Shown here piece after piece: positions 1,637 through 6,752 of a DNA stretch of 41,344 bases. Each line of letters opens with the position of its first letter. Within the stretch, counting starts at the first letter, position 1. Position numbers and translations under genes: made by a program. The notes beneath the pieces were generated by a model, which ran no database searches, was not told where the DNA came from, and saw only the letters and a program-made list of their open reading frames with translations. Source of the DNA: an uncultured Bacteroidales bacterium (GTDB lineage Bacteria; Bacteroidota; Bacteroidia; Bacteroidales; UBA932); contig CALVAJ010000019.1 of NCBI GenBank assembly GCA_944325505.1, positions 1-41,344 on the forward strand. The letters run 5' to 3'.

Positions 1637-1666
1637 TTGCCTATATCCAAAAAATACTTAACTTTG
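1637..1666 (+). promoter_or_regulatory. metX operon promoter
   Basis: TTG at 1637-1639, a 19-bp spacer, then TAACTTTG at 1659-1666: a full match to the Bacteroidota -33/-7 promoter. Transcription should start about 1670-1675, just before the leader-peptide ATG at 1676 and some 215 nt before metX. Confidence 0.7.
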
Positions 1667-1675
1667 CATCCGTCT

Positions 1676-1726
1676 ATGAAAATGTCATCTTTCATATCAA
1701 TGATGTCAAAGCGAATGCATCGCTAA
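1676..1726 (+). CDS. Methionine-rich leader peptide of the metX-thrA-metY operon
   Basis: A 16-codon reading frame, MKMSSFISMMSKRMHR then TAA. Five of its 16 residues are methionine (positions 1, 3, 9, 10, 14), including a tandem pair at 1700-1705. It begins within about 10 nt of the -7 element and ends at 1724-1726, between two complementary segments of the following attenuator. It precedes methionine biosynthesis genes. This is how leader peptides of amino-acid attenuators are built (trpL, hisL and thrL are the known examples). Its start would be almost leaderless, which is a weak point. Confidence 0.6.
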   Translation: MKMSSFISMMSKRMHR

Positions 1727-1778
1727 GATGCATCGGTTTTCTATTGCCGGGAGGTGTGCGGGATGCCCACTCCGGTTT
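1715..1778 (+). promoter_or_regulatory. Putative methionine-responsive transcription attenuator
   Basis: Segment 1 (ATGCATC, 1715-1721, overlapping the last Met codon of the leader peptide) pairs with segment 2 (GATGCAT, 1727-1733); the peptide stop codon is in the loop. Segments 3 and 4 form a GC-rich hairpin (CCGG 1747-1750 with CCGG 1772-1775, inner GGTG/CACT and GC/GC) followed by TTT. Segment 2 can instead pair with segment 3 (TCGG 1733-1736 with CCGG 1747-1750, or GCATC 1730-1734 with GATGC 1762-1766). A ribosome stalled at Met codons would cover segment 1 and favour the antiterminator. A ribosome at the stop codon would cover segment 2 and let the terminator form. The 2:3 pairing is short, so the mechanism is inferred. 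Confidence 0.5.
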
Positions 1779-1886
1779 CCCAAGACAGAAAGACAATAAT
1801 CAGAAAAATAAACAAGTCCTGACGGATGCTGTGCATAGAACCTGATCTGTGTTCCGGTGCAGACGGCGGGACGCGAATTATGAAAA

Positions 1887-2972
1887 ATGACAAGAAAAGA
1901 ATTCGATTATGACCGTCCGTTCCAGTGCGAGGCTGGCGGGGTCATTGAACATCTTAAGGTAGTTTACCATATTTCAGAGGGATATTTCAAGAACGGGGTA
2001 TCTGATCCGGAGGCCATCAGGGCATTGGCCCATGATGCGGCAGGCAAGAAAAAAGTAGTATGGATAACTCATGCGCTGACGGCCAATTCGGACCCTTCCG
2101 ACTGGTGGCCGGAACTTGTCGGCCCCGGTAAGTTTTTCGATACCGGGAAATATATAGTCATCTGTGCCAATATGCTGGGGTCTGCCTACGGATCTTCCGG
2201 GCCGGCCTCTCCGAAACCAGATACGGTGACACCGGACAATCCGGACGGACGGCCGTATTATTTCAGTTTCCCCAAGGTCACTGTCCGTGATATCGTAAAT
2301 GCGGAAATTCTTCTGCGCAGGCATCTGGAAATAGAAAAGATAGATCTTATAGTAGGAGGCTCCATCGGCGGGTTCCAGGCTCTCGAGTGGGCGATAATGG
2401 AGCCGGATGTCATAAAGACGGCAGCTTTCATAGCCTGCGGCTCGCGCGTGACCCCGTGGCTTACCGCGCACAATGAGTCGCAGAGGATGGCTCTGGAGGC
2501 TGACTCTACATTCCGCGCATGCGGAAGCCTGAAAGGCGGGGAGGCAGGACTGAAGGCAGCCCGTGCCATGGCCCTGATTTCATACAGAAGCTACGAAGGC
2601 TACAATGCTACCCAGTCTGAACAGGACACGGATACTCTCTTTGCCGACAGGGCGGCCTCATACGAAAGATATCAGGGAAAGAAACTGGCGGACAGATTCG
2701 ATGCCTACTCATACTGGTATCTTACTTATTCTGTGGACAGCCACAATGTCGGACGCGGCAGAGGGGGCGTCCGGGAGGCTCTCGGAACCATAAAGGCCAG
2801 AAGCATAGTGATAGGTATCGACAGCGATGACCTTTTCCCTGTAGAGGAGCAGAGGTTCATAGCGGAGAGTATCCCCGGCGCAGAATATCATGAAATCACG
2901 TCTAAATTCGGCCATGACGGTTTTCTTCTGGAGTATGGCCAGATATCGGAAATATTGAAAAAAGAGATATAA
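1887..2972 (+). CDS. metX: Homoserine O-acetyltransferase
   Basis: Transfers an acetyl group from acetyl-CoA to homoserine, the committed step to methionine by direct sulfhydrylation (family knowledge; succinyl specificity cannot be excluded from sequence alone). The 361-residue alpha/beta-hydrolase has the nucleophile elbow GGSIGG with Ser159, the oxyanion-region motif NMLGSAYGSSGP (residues 95-106), Asp314 in SDDLFP and His343 in FGHDGF, so the catalytic triad is complete. The ATG at 1887 fits the family N-terminus; an out-of-frame ATG at 1880 overlaps it. thrA starts 3 nt after the stop, and metY follows, so the three form one operon behind the leader at 1676-1778. Cytoplasmic. Confidence 0.93.
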   Translation: MTRKEFDYDRPFQCEAGGVIEHLKVVYHISEGYFKNGVSDPEAIRALAHDAAGKKKVVWITHALTANSDPSDWWPELVGPGKFFDTGKYIVICANMLGSAYGSSGPASPKPDTVTPDNPDGRPYYFSFPKVTVRDIVNAEILLRRHLEIEKIDLIVGGSIGGFQALEWAIMEPDVIKTAAFIACGSRVTPWLTAHNESQRMALEADSTFRACGSLKGGEAGLKAARAMALISYRSYEGYNATQSEQDTDTLFADRAASYERYQGKKLADRFDAYSYWYLTYSVDSHNVGRGRGGVREALGTIKARSIVIGIDSDDLFPVEEQRFIAESIPGAEYHEITSKFGHDGFLLEYGQISEILKKEI

Positions 2973-2975
2973 CAT

Positions 2976-5438
2976 ATGCAAGTACTTAAATTCGGCGGCA
3001 CATCAGTCGCCAATTCGGCCAATATGGCCAGAGTCGTAGATATAGTATCCAAGGCGGTCGATCGTGACCGGACTATTCTGGTCTGTTCTGCAATAAGCGG
3101 ATTTACGGATGCTTTAATAAGGACCGGCAATCTGGCTGCAAAACGGGATGACGACTATCGCTCCATTATCGATGAATATCAGAAAAAGCACCATGCCATC
3201 ATAAAGGAGCTGCTTCCTTTGGAAAAACATGAGGAAAGCCTGGAGGTATGCGACGGGATATTCGATTCCCTAAGGAGTATCGCCCAGGGAGTGTATCTGC
3301 TGGGGGAACTGAGCGAGGCGAGCCTGGATGCGATCCAGGGTTGCGGAGAACTGGTTTCGACCAGGATAATCGCCACCAAACTGGCGTCGATCGGCATCGC
3401 CACCAAGTGGATAGACTCAAGGTCGGTGATAAAGACACAGAAAAGGGACGGAGTCAATGTGGTCGATATAGCACAGACCAACGCCAATGTGGCCAATATG
3501 CTTGAAAACAACCCTATAACATCTCTTTTCGTCCTGCCGGGCTTTATCGCTTCGGACGACCAGGGGCGTACTACCACTCTCGGCCGCGGCGGGTCGGACT
3601 ATACGGCTTCGCTTCTGGCGGTAGGGTGCAACGCCCGTATCCTTGAAATCTGGACTGATGTACCGGGGATGATGACAGCCAATCCGAAGATTGTCCCGGG
3701 GGTCAGGACCATCAGCAACATTTCATACCGTGCGGCCCTGGAACTTTCGCATTTCGGCGCCAAAGTGATCTATCCTCCGACAATCCAGCCTGTCGTTTCT
3801 GAAGGTATCCCTATTTACGTGAAGAATACCTTCGATCCCGAGGCTCCTGGAACTCTGATAGAGAAGAATCCTCCCAGGGGCAAGGAAAAACTCATCGGCA
3901 TATCCAATTCGGACAATATCGCCCTGCTGTCCCTCGAAGGGAGCGGCATGGTCGGTATCCCCGGCTTCTCAAGCCGTCTTTTCGACACTCTCAGCCGCAG
4001 CGGCATCAATATAATCCTCATCACACAGGCTTCCTCGGTGCATACGATGTGTATTGCGGTATCCGAGAAAGATGCCGACAGGGCGAAAGCCGCAGCCGAT
4101 GCCAGGTTCGCCTATGAAATTTCCATCGGAAAACTGAATCCTCTGAAAGTGGAGAAAGGCTTCTCCATAGTCTGCCTCGTGGGAGATGATATCCTCAACC
4201 AGTGCGGCACTACCGGACGTATGCTCGCGGCTCTGGGCAGGCACAGCGTTTCTATACGGGCTACCGCGCAGGGCTCTTCCGAAAGGAACATATCCGTGAT
4301 AGTGCATTCGGAGGATGTAAACAGGGCGATACGTTACATCCACGATGAATTTTTCGGCAGGACCGCAGTCAAGGATGTCAATCTGTTCGTTGCCGGATAC
4401 GGTACCGTAGGAAAGGCTCTTGTCGATATCATTGCCCGCAACGGGGATCAAATAGCGGCCCGCACCGGGAAGCGCCTCCGGGTGACGGGTCTTTCGAACA
4501 GCCGCAAATATGTCCTGAACACTGACGGACTTCCTCTCGACAATATACAGGCTCTGCTCGATGGCGGAGAGAGTGCCGCGGATGAAGCCTATTTCGAGGC
4601 CCTCGCAAACACTTCCCTTGAAAATTCCGTTTTCGTGGACTGTACTGCAAGTTCGGACATCGCATACAAGTACATGAATCTTTTCAGACACGGCTATTCG
4701 GTAGTGGCCTGCAACAAGATAACATTCTCCTCACCGTATTCCCAGTACCGGGCTCTCAAGCGTTCGGCACTCGAGAACGGGGCTTCACTCAAATACGAGA
4801 CGACCGTCGGGGCCGCCCTGCCTATTCTGGAGTCCATTTCCAGAAGCGTCAACAGCGGGGACGAAATCCATCGGATAGAGGCTGTGCTTTCAGGTACCCT
4901 GAATTACATTTTCAGCACTTATGACGGAGGAAAGACAGCTACATTTGCGGAAATAGTGCGCAAGGCGCACGATGCCGGCTACACCGAACCGGATCCGCGT
5001 CTGGACCTGAGCGGGCGCGACGTACTCCGCAAGCTCCTGATCCTTTCCAGAGAGGCGGGAGTCGGAATCGACGAGAAGGATGTGGAAATATGCCCTATTC
5101 TCGGACCTGAGTTCTTCGAGGGTAAAGTGGATGCCTTTTACAGGAAACTCGAGGAAAATGAAGCCGCTTTCGCGGCACAATACGAGGCTGCTGCGTCGCA
5201 AGGCCTGAGGCAGCGGTTCATCGCCTCTCTGGTGAAAGACGCATCGTCGCCGTTCGGTTATAAGGCGAAAATGGCTCTGGAGAATGTCGGGCCGGAGCAT
5301 CCTCTTTACAATCTCTGCGGAACGGACAATGCGGCAATCATCAGTACCGATTTCTATCCTTCTCCGCTGGTGATCCAGGGTGCAGGAGCCGGGGCTTATC
5401 AGACCGCCTCGGGTGTTCTGAACGATATATTGGTCTGA
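2976..5438 (+). CDS. thrA: Bifunctional aspartokinase/homoserine dehydrogenase
   Basis: Phosphorylates aspartate and, with its second half, reduces aspartate semialdehyde to homoserine. The protein has 820 residues, the usual length of ThrA/MetL fusions. The kinase part starts with KFGGTS (residues 5-10) and contains the GRGGSDYTA motif (204-211). ACT regulatory domains occupy about 310-460. The dehydrogenase part starts with the NAD(P) motif GYGTVG (474-479) and includes SGTLNYIF and the catalytic-region motif EPDPRLDLSGRDVLRK. It lies 3 nt after metX and 30 nt before metY, so homoserine is made next to the enzymes that use it. The ACT domains suggest feedback by threonine or another end product. 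The sequence alone does not tell which amino acid inhibits. Confidence 0.95.
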   Translation: MQVLKFGGTSVANSANMARVVDIVSKAVDRDRTILVCSAISGFTDALIRTGNLAAKRDDDYRSIIDEYQKKHHAIIKELLPLEKHEESLEVCDGIFDSLRSIAQGVYLLGELSEASLDAIQGCGELVSTRIIATKLASIGIATKWIDSRSVIKTQKRDGVNVVDIAQTNANVANMLENNPITSLFVLPGFIASDDQGRTTTLGRGGSDYTASLLAVGCNARILEIWTDVPGMMTANPKIVPGVRTISNISYRAALELSHFGAKVIYPPTIQPVVSEGIPIYVKNTFDPEAPGTLIEKNPPRGKEKLIGISNSDNIALLSLEGSGMVGIPGFSSRLFDTLSRSGINIILITQASSVHTMCIAVSEKDADRAKAAADARFAYEISIGKLNPLKVEKGFSIVCLVGDDILNQCGTTGRMLAALGRHSVSIRATAQGSSERNISVIVHSEDVNRAIRYIHDEFFGRTAVKDVNLFVAGYGTVGKALVDIIARNGDQIAARTGKRLRVTGLSNSRKYVLNTDGLPLDNIQALLDGGESAADEAYFEALANTSLENSVFVDCTASSDIAYKYMNLFRHGYSVVACNKITFSSPYSQYRALKRSALENGASLKYETTVGAALPILESISRSVNSGDEIHRIEAVLSGTLNYIFSTYDGGKTATFAEIVRKAHDAGYTEPDPRLDLSGRDVLRKLLILSREAGVGIDEKDVEICPILGPEFFEGKVDAFYRKLEENEAAFAAQYEAAASQGLRQRFIASLVKDASSPFGYKAKMALENVGPEHPLYNLCGTDNAAIISTDFYPSPLVIQGAGAGAYQTASGVLNDILV

Positions 5439-5468: not shown

Positions 5469-6752
5469 ATGAGCGAAAAAAGAGACTATAGGTTCGAGAC
5501 CCTGCAGGTCAGGGCCGGACAGGAAATCGACCCGCAGTCGAAAGGTACGGCGGTTCCTATCTATCAGAGTACGGCATACGTATTCGACAATATGCAGTAC
5601 GGGGTGGACCTTTTCACCCTCAGCAAACCGGGAAACATCTATACCCGTATCACGAATACGACTACCGAAGTGTTCGAGAAAAGGATGGCTGCCCTTGAGA
5701 ACGGAGTGGCGGCTACTGCTACCGCTTCAGGACAGTCTTCAGTGCTGCTGAGTATCCTGAATGTGGCAGGGATGGGTGAGAACATCGTGGCTTCTCCGTT
5801 CCTTTACGGAGGCACTTTCACCATGTTCGCCATTACGCTCAGGGACATGGGCATCCAGGTGAGGTTTGCCAAGAGTGATAAGGTTGAGGATCTGGAGGCT
5901 CTGGTCGATGAAAAGACCAAAGCCATATTCGTGGAGAATCTGGCCAACCCGGCTTTCAGTATACCTGATTTCGAGCCGATAGTTGATATGGCCCGTCGGC
6001 ACGGCATCTGCGTTTTCGTAGACAATACATTCGGTATCGGCGGATATCTTTTCCGGGCCTCCGACTGGGGAGTGAACGTCAGCATACATTCGGCGACCAA
6101 ATGGATATGCGGGCACGGGACAGCGCTCGGCGGCGTGGTCGTGGACAACGGCAACTTCGAGTGGACTCCCGAGAAATATCCTCTGCTTGCCGCTCCGTCG
6201 GAGAGTTACCACGGAGTGGTGTACACGGAAGTATTCGGCAAAGGGGCTTTTGCCGGGCGTATCCGCGTGGACGGACTGCGCAACCTCGGTCCGGCACCTT
6301 CGCCGTTCAACTCGTTCCTGATGCTCCAGGGGCTGGAGACCCTGTCCCTGCGCGGGCAGAGATGCTGTGACAATACCCTTGCCGTGGCGCAGTTCCTGGA
6401 GAAACATCCGGCAGTGGAGAGTGTCAATTATCCGGGACTCGAAAGCAACCCTTATCATGAACTGGGCAAGAAGTATCTGAAGCACGGATTCGGCGGCGTG
6501 CTGACCTTCAGAGTGAAAGGAGGATTCGACGGTGCTGCCGCCCTGGTGGATAAACTGGAACTGATCCTGCATGTGGGAAGCGTCGGGGACGCCAAGTCGC
6601 TTATCGTCCATCCGGCTTCCACTACGCATTCCCAGCTCAGTCCTGAGGAACAGGTCGCAGCCGGAGTATATCCGAACCAGCTCCGTCTCTCGGTCGGGAT
6701 CGAGAATGTTGACGACCTCATCTACGACCTCAAGACCGCCCTGGAGAAATAG
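5469..6752 (+). CDS. metY: O-acetylhomoserine sulfhydrylase (Cys/Met metabolism PLP enzyme)
   Basis: A 427-residue PLP enzyme of the cystathionine-synthase/sulfhydrylase family. The PLP lysine is Lys211 in SIHSATKW; YTR (58-60) binds cofactor phosphate in the neighbouring subunit; VDNTFG (184-189) is the segment that contacts the PLP ring. The length of about 427 and the GTALGG segment fit O-acetylhomoserine aminocarboxypropyltransferase better than the shorter cystathionine gamma-synthases. It would convert O-acetylhomoserine plus sulfide to homocysteine. It follows metX and thrA in one operon, which supports this substrate. Cytoplasmic. A cystathionine-forming activity is the alternative. 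Confidence 0.88.
   Translation: MSEKRDYRFETLQVRAGQEIDPQSKGTAVPIYQSTAYVFDNMQYGVDLFTLSKPGNIYTRITNTTTEVFEKRMAALENGVAATATASGQSSVLLSILNVAGMGENIVASPFLYGGTFTMFAITLRDMGIQVRFAKSDKVEDLEALVDEKTKAIFVENLANPAFSIPDFEPIVDMARRHGICVFVDNTFGIGGYLFRASDWGVNVSIHSATKWICGHGTALGGVVVDNGNFEWTPEKYPLLAAPSESYHGVVYTEVFGKGAFAGRIRVDGLRNLGPAPSPFNSFLMLQGLETLSLRGQRCCDNTLAVAQFLEKHPAVESVNYPGLESNPYHELGKKYLKHGFGGVLTFRVKGGFDGAAALVDKLELILHVGSVGDAKSLIVHPASTTHSQLSPEEQVAAGVYPNQLRLSVGIENVDDLIYDLKTALEK

Follow-up and report, generated by a model that had tools for sequence, protein, structure and literature searches.

A short, methionine-rich open reading frame (ORF) stands ahead of a methionine biosynthesis operon in the window, the whole 41,344-nucleotide stretch of DNA from an uncultured Bacteroidales bacterium analysed here, and recurs upstream of metX or metY within one Bacteroidales family. 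The ORF, its Met codons and the hairpin into which it runs are conserved, and codons of the leader show complementarity to the site where translation of the first gene begins, the two sequences changing together between lineages. On comparative sequence evidence the methionine leader is well supported as a real and conserved element, and its Met-rich ORF probably senses methionine shortage through ribosome stalling. Partly on the strength of folding models, we think it probable that the element is a methionine-responsive translational attenuator, and a lock on translation of the first gene is moderately supported.

The operon lies on the forward strand in the order metX-like, thrA, metY and then asd. 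The products of thrA (bifunctional aspartate kinase/homoserine dehydrogenase; 2976..5438) and metY (O-acetylhomoserine sulfhydrylase; 5469..6752) exceed their curated NCBIfam cut-offs (857.2 bits against 726 and 583.5 against 495.1, respectively). The product of the first gene (1887..2972), a homoserine O-acetyltransferase by profile match, fits MetX models strongly (E = 2e-85) yet scores 286.8 against a curated cut-off of 500, and is therefore named MetX-like here. It shares 98% identity with its counterpart in a record named Candidatus Cryptobacteroides avicola (L028). A GC-rich inverted repeat immediately 5′ of the leader promoter (GGACGGTCCC...GGGGGCCGTCC; 1572-1607) is probably the end of an upstream transcript, and at the contig start (positions 1-60) GGTACATT is repeated three times.

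The promoter, TTG-N19-TAACTTTG (1637..1666, forward strand; TTG at 1637-1639, TAACTTTG at 1659-1666), is one we take to be of the Bacteroidota type, giving a predicted transcription start and a predicted 5′ UTR of only a few nucleotides. The leader ORF that follows, MKMSSFISMMSKRMHR plus stop (1676..1726, forward strand), is conserved in frame and has 16 codons and a TAA, with five Met including a tandem pair at codons 9-10 (1700..1705), the proposed sensor codons on the basis of modelled ribosome masking and Met position statistics. Its stop codon lies in the loop of hairpin A:B (ATGCATC/GATGCAT; 1715..1733, arms 1715-1721 and 1727-1733), beyond which stands a GC-rich hairpin, C, with the loop GGGAT (about 1745..1775) and only TTT after it. 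All of these parts had been described beforehand and are present in the sequence, with slight corrections to their coordinates. The window gave 0 matches to Rfam at gathering score (SAM riboswitch, T-box and others), and a permissive threshold over 1620-1900 returned three weak matches, all unrelated, which speaks against a known Rfam element.

A search with the nucleotide core of the leader, which made no requirement of reading frame, yielded 50 distinct leaders once three chance hits (L148, L156 and L205) were removed, and metX or metY lies downstream of every pattern match except these three. All 50 contain an in-frame ATG ORF, and in 49 of them TAnnTTTG occurs 7-36 nt 5′ of the leader ATG. 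Another search, which admitted a spacing of 6-13 nt between TAnnTTTG and a downstream ATG, is satisfied by 38 loci with 27 distinct leader sequences. A covariance model, R1, built from 35 of the 50 sequences matched 78/199 family genomes in 16/25 genera at E ≤ 0.05, the weakest including chance matches, with a single match in the window's own genome. Among divergent R1 matches, 34/42 are upstream of metX or metY; the other eight score ≤25 bits, a range that also holds four true divergent leaders. In an order-level set 7/393 genomes match, and the three outside the family (L214, L215 and L216) look spurious, being without a metX, thrA, metY or asd match. A looser phylum-wide pattern was dropped since it matched 161/395 genomes and its reversed control also matched many. 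Of the metX relatives from genome_contigs (80 kept of 144 found), 27/80 have the leader upstream and 53/80 do not. These 53 loci gave nothing by R1 or by relaxed motifs; at many of them metX immediately follows a different gene, a distinct metY-type gene among them, and a comparison of 20 of them with Rfam returned tRNAs only and no riboswitch.

For further analysis a set of 83 leaders was read, from which the eight divergent hits lacking a met gene, L261 (whose contig ends before the promoter), the duplicate L284 and the second R1 sites of two genomes (G894 and G904) were left out. A promoter-proximal ATG is open in frame into the hairpin in 77/83, compared with 0 and 0 for frames 1 and 2. 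These 77 ORFs are 7-49 codons long, their lengths and N-terminal sequences thus varying under a constant frame; in other genera the peptides end in MMMMRMHRQMHQ, MMMRMHRKMHS, MSMSMRMHR, MTMRMHR or MIMRMHR. From start to hairpin, 178 of 1290 codons (13.8%) are Met. Counted back from the hairpin in 53 non-redundant leaders, Met occupies codon -5 in 21, -4 in 37 and -2 in 40, and ATG is nearly absent from the other frames; in a few leaders (L029, L037 and L276) the hairpin codon is the sole Met among the last eight codons. Over 158 leader pairs, which are not independent of one another, first, second and third codon positions differ 273, 379 and 505 times, respectively, a pattern that mildly favours coding sequence. 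A lack of conserved Met codons in homologous leaders would have counted against the original prediction; instead Met codons, frame and hairpin are kept across many species. Three longer leaders (L206, at G846:C56, L176 and L178) carry Thr/Ser/Ile-rich stretches 5′ of the Met codons, for example MTTTLNTGITSNITTSATTIASMRMHR. Dual sensing of threonine and methionine is possible in these because the L206 operon has thrA after metY and metX.

The leader coevolves with a downstream partner, namely the region where translation of the first gene begins. Over 47 non-redundant loci, picked solely by non-redundancy, each leader pairs with its own start at a mean of -13.40 kcal/mol, as against -10.75 (sd 0.33) when leaders are permuted among loci, with 0/5000 permutations as low. 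Smaller sets of 39 and 21 loci gave 0/5000 and 1/5000, respectively, and a control stretch in the gene body (+40..+79) was flat in all three (1758, 1380 and 1076 of 5000 for 47, 39 and 21 loci). Seven leaders (L174, L179, L207, L245, L255, L279 and L283) fell outside the start tests as the start of their first gene could not be placed. Along the mRNA the excess complementarity is confined to the area of the start codon, in a set that contains hand-added loci (L007, L090, L012, L019, L023 and L024, several of them already known to be complementary, plus L028). Other early start tests also included these six, some of them with L028 and L002 as well; our conclusions rest on the permutation tests above and the 45-locus modelling below, whose loci were not hand-picked. 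The paired sequences vary from lineage to lineage, being CATATCAATGAT with ATCATTGATATG, CATATCTGT with ACAGATATG, GATGATGAT with ATCATCATC and TGAATATTTCAG with CTGAAATATTCA. This is a result for the group, about half of the lineages being without clear pairing.

In the window, a strand of the leader that we term S (TGTCATCTTTCATA; 1683..1696, forward strand) pairs at 13/14 positions with the metX start region (TATGAAAAATGACA; 1879..1892, forward strand), which extends from -8 to +5 relative to the metX ATG (position 1887). Predicted pair probabilities are 0.83-0.99 with one C-A mismatch, hairpin A:B forms alongside, and 3/200 shuffles of 1861-1905 reached pairing of this strength. The effect of a ribosome on the leader was modelled by masking its footprint, with footprint edges assumed and with kinetics and tertiary contacts ignored by the folding. 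The metX start codon is then unpaired with a probability of 0.01-0.07 in the free RNA, 0.65-0.79 with the ribosomal A site at Met 9 or 10, and 0.01-0.08 with the ribosome at Met 14 or the stop. Across 45 non-redundant loci (two fewer than above, L034 being left out for its long leader and L248 for want of a promoter inside the limit set), masking the actual Met codons lowers the cost of opening the start by at least 2 kcal/mol in 20/45, compared with 36/180 combinations with swapped leaders, and by at least 4 kcal/mol in 16/45 compared with 13/180; opening is below 2 kcal/mol at 25/45. With the ribosome modelled where the stop usually lies, the start opens by at least 2 kcal/mol in 9/45, several of which have their real stop further on. 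Close relatives of the window are mixed. The whole start region of the near-identical L028 opens by just 1.1-1.9 kcal/mol at the Met codons, its start codon itself going from 0.03 to 0.60 unpaired; L002 is closed whatever the state modelled, L003 is half open from the outset, and in L006, L090 and L175 the start codon opens little or not at all.

These results are consistent with the following mechanism. Transcription would begin a few nucleotides 5′ of the near-leaderless 16-codon ORF. When methionine is abundant, ribosomes would traverse the ORF, stop in the A:B loop and depart, whereupon S (1683-1696) would pair with 1879-1892 and keep the metX start closed. When charged Met-tRNA is scarce, a ribosome stalled at Met codons 9-10 would cover S, the metX start would be freed and the first methionine enzyme made. 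Hairpin A:B begins 12-15 nt 3′ of codons 9-10 and may slow or position the ribosome.

The original prediction had placed the output at transcription instead, as a classical attenuator in which a ribosome stalled at Met would leave arm B available for pairing with the left side of hairpin C, so that a terminator is blocked. The general layout, with a leader ORF, a stop codon in a loop and two hairpins, is indeed that of such attenuators, and the part of the proposal that concerned a Met-rich, stalling-type leader ORF stands on its conserved codons, frame and hairpin. The terminator and antiterminator find no such support. Pairing between arm B and downstream C is at chance over the 83 leaders (mean z -0.15), with values of about -2 in the close relatives L002 and L003 and +0.5 in the near-identical L028, although the stretch around C does show somewhat more structure than its shuffles do (mean z -0.76; 21/83 below -1.5). 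Neither the window nor L028 has a U-tailed hairpin C, and a terminator scan of 1400-2000 found nothing there, its sole match being hairpin A:B, with a yield close to that of shuffles (1 against a mean of 0.5). The window leader alone is not unusually stable against shuffles (z -0.98). The weak points conceded at the outset are real. Since the coevolving partner of the leader is also the gene start, we regard a classical attenuator as unlikely in the window.

Hairpin C itself has a covarying stem. In a selection of 22 leaders of Cryptobacteroides type out of the 50, six of seven consensus pairs have changed on both sides, each pair being broken in 0-6 of the 22 sequences, and the loop [AG]GGAT is nearly invariant in Cryptobacteroides relatives. 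The hairpin resembles a CsrA site. Control of hairpin C by CsrA/RsmA is nevertheless improbable: CsrA was found in 0/9 genomes, the control giving a signal in 3/14.

Hairpins with a U-rich tail that reach -7 kcal/mol or better were counted in 20/83 leaders, where shuffles that keep single-base composition only would give 5.6, an excess that favours termination in some lineages. Eight of the 20 are A:B itself, leaving 12/83 with another hairpin of this kind (for example L209, L245, L249, L258 and L270), and these loci tend to be without start pairing: 1/10 with such a hairpin pair at the start versus 27/44 without (Fisher p = 0.004). As the test was post hoc, on values copied by hand from a set containing hand-added loci, we treat this anticorrelation as a lead only, and one that fits a classical attenuator in those genera, where transcription termination may be the output. 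Two leaders, L245 and L249, have two adjacent hairpins sharing bases, some 25-76 nt beyond the Met codon of A:B, of which the second (-19 kcal/mol, with a U-rich tail) gives the pair the appearance of an antiterminator and terminator. L249 is without start pairing and L245 lies outside the start tests.

A simpler transcriptional scheme would have A:B and the T-rich stretch after it serve as the terminator, with a ribosome stalled at Met masking the 5′ arm. Hairpin A:B is the only terminator-like site within 1400-2000, it carries a U-rich tail at ≤ -7 kcal/mol in 8/83 leaders, T makes up 50% of positions 6-12 past the hairpin in 53 leaders, and the 5′ arm opens with a Met codon (codon 14 in the window). 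On the other hand, the T-rich stretch does not directly adjoin the stem and is missing in some genera (e.g. L174), and the stem is short, with roughly -9 kcal/mol for the clade of the window. Such a terminator would leave the coevolution with the gene start unexplained, and we judge it slightly less likely than the classical arrangement.

Hairpin A:B is the most conserved part of the element, even though the translational model needs neither A:B nor C. All seven pairs form in 55/80 distinct leaders, the outer two being lost in 17 and 16, and predicted pair probabilities in the window are 0.69-0.99. One pair has changed on both sides in each of L243 (ATGCAAC/GTTGCAT) and L283 (ATGCGTA/TATGCAT), wobble pairs occur in L255, L279 and L276, and in divergent leaders the pairing persists while the peptide end turns to MQR, MRR, MRL, MHL or MRI. 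The 5′ arm starts with a Met codon in 83/83 leaders, an invariance that is partly data selection because pattern and model both favour that codon. This near-perfect palindrome of little variation, with one R1 match per matching family genome, including the window's own (two in G894 and G904), might instead be read as a DNA operator, ATGCATC-N5-GATGCAT, for a methionine regulator, the ORF being incidental. We consider this highly improbable given the strict reading frame and Met codons, the G-U pairs that break the DNA symmetry in L255, L279, L276 and L283, and the coevolution with the start region. Least probable of all is an arrest peptide sensing methionine or SAM within the exit tunnel through its RMHR end, which is terminal or precedes a short tail in 50/50 pattern-found leaders by a pattern that demanded most of those letters, and which is weakened by the changed ends of divergent leaders with intact hairpin pairing and by the free peptide sequence upstream.

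We favour the translational attenuator in the window on these grounds, and extend it to the family more tentatively. That Bacteroidota possess a family-wide methionine translational attenuator, with a coevolving leader-start lock, exchangeable outputs (start sequestering or termination) and a nearly invariant Met-codon hairpin, we hold at slightly under an even chance. The control of methionine genes is commonly ascribed to SAM riboswitches, T-boxes or repressors, and among the matches listed in the open literature, with most subscription papers outside its scope, a methionine leader peptide was not found. According to a survey of terminators, its Firmicutes cases were the first leader peptides known to its authors from beyond Proteobacteria and Actinobacteria, and the survey contains no word beginning "Bacteroid". 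Nearest for the phylum, among the papers listed, is a paper on the B. thetaiotaomicron transcriptome which mentions short ORFs reminiscent of leader peptides. If our reading is true, a major gut phylum regulates methionine synthesis by a codon-sensing device of its own, and translational attenuation by amino acid starvation extends beyond Actinobacteria; compensatory mutations would offer a simple test in laboratory Bacteroides. A conserved sensor hairpin with changing outputs would reveal how such switches evolve.

Several known systems share features with the proposed attenuator, those most similar in kind being the LEU element of Actinobacteria and the polycysteine ORFs of mycobacteria. The classical attenuators of Proteobacteria (trp, his, thr and leu) have leader peptides rich in the regulated amino acid; the present leader is alike in this and in its stop codon inside a hairpin, and unlike them in having no supported antiterminator/terminator pair. 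In the translational attenuation of ermC and ermB, as in the mechanism proposed here, a ribosome that stalls on the leader exposes the start of the following gene; the signal there is an antibiotic and not a shortage of charged tRNA. Bacteroidota largely do without Shine-Dalgarno pairing. The polycysteine short ORF attenuators of mycobacteria were reportedly tested by experiment by Canestrari et al. in 2020. These leaderless ORFs are also covered by a review (PMC9031893). They resemble the methionine leader, as proposed here, in being near-leaderless short ORFs, with codons for the controlled amino acid, in which ribosome speed governs downstream translation; they differ in amino acid (cysteine), in phylum (Actinobacteria) and in resting on experiments, where the methionine leader is known from sequence and folding models. 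For the LEU element of Actinobacteria, pairing of a run of leucine codons with the Shine-Dalgarno box of leuA is predicted (PMC1262725, BMC Microbiol 2005). The LEU element is like the methionine leader in its ORF with end-product codons, in the predicted pairing to the start of the first gene and in that other attenuator elements are reported missing (PMC1262725). It is unlike it in responding to leucine, in its actinobacterial hosts and in its pseudoknot, the element described here belonging to methionine and Bacteroidota and having a conserved Met-codon hairpin, with the anti-start strand on or just 5′ of the Met codons.
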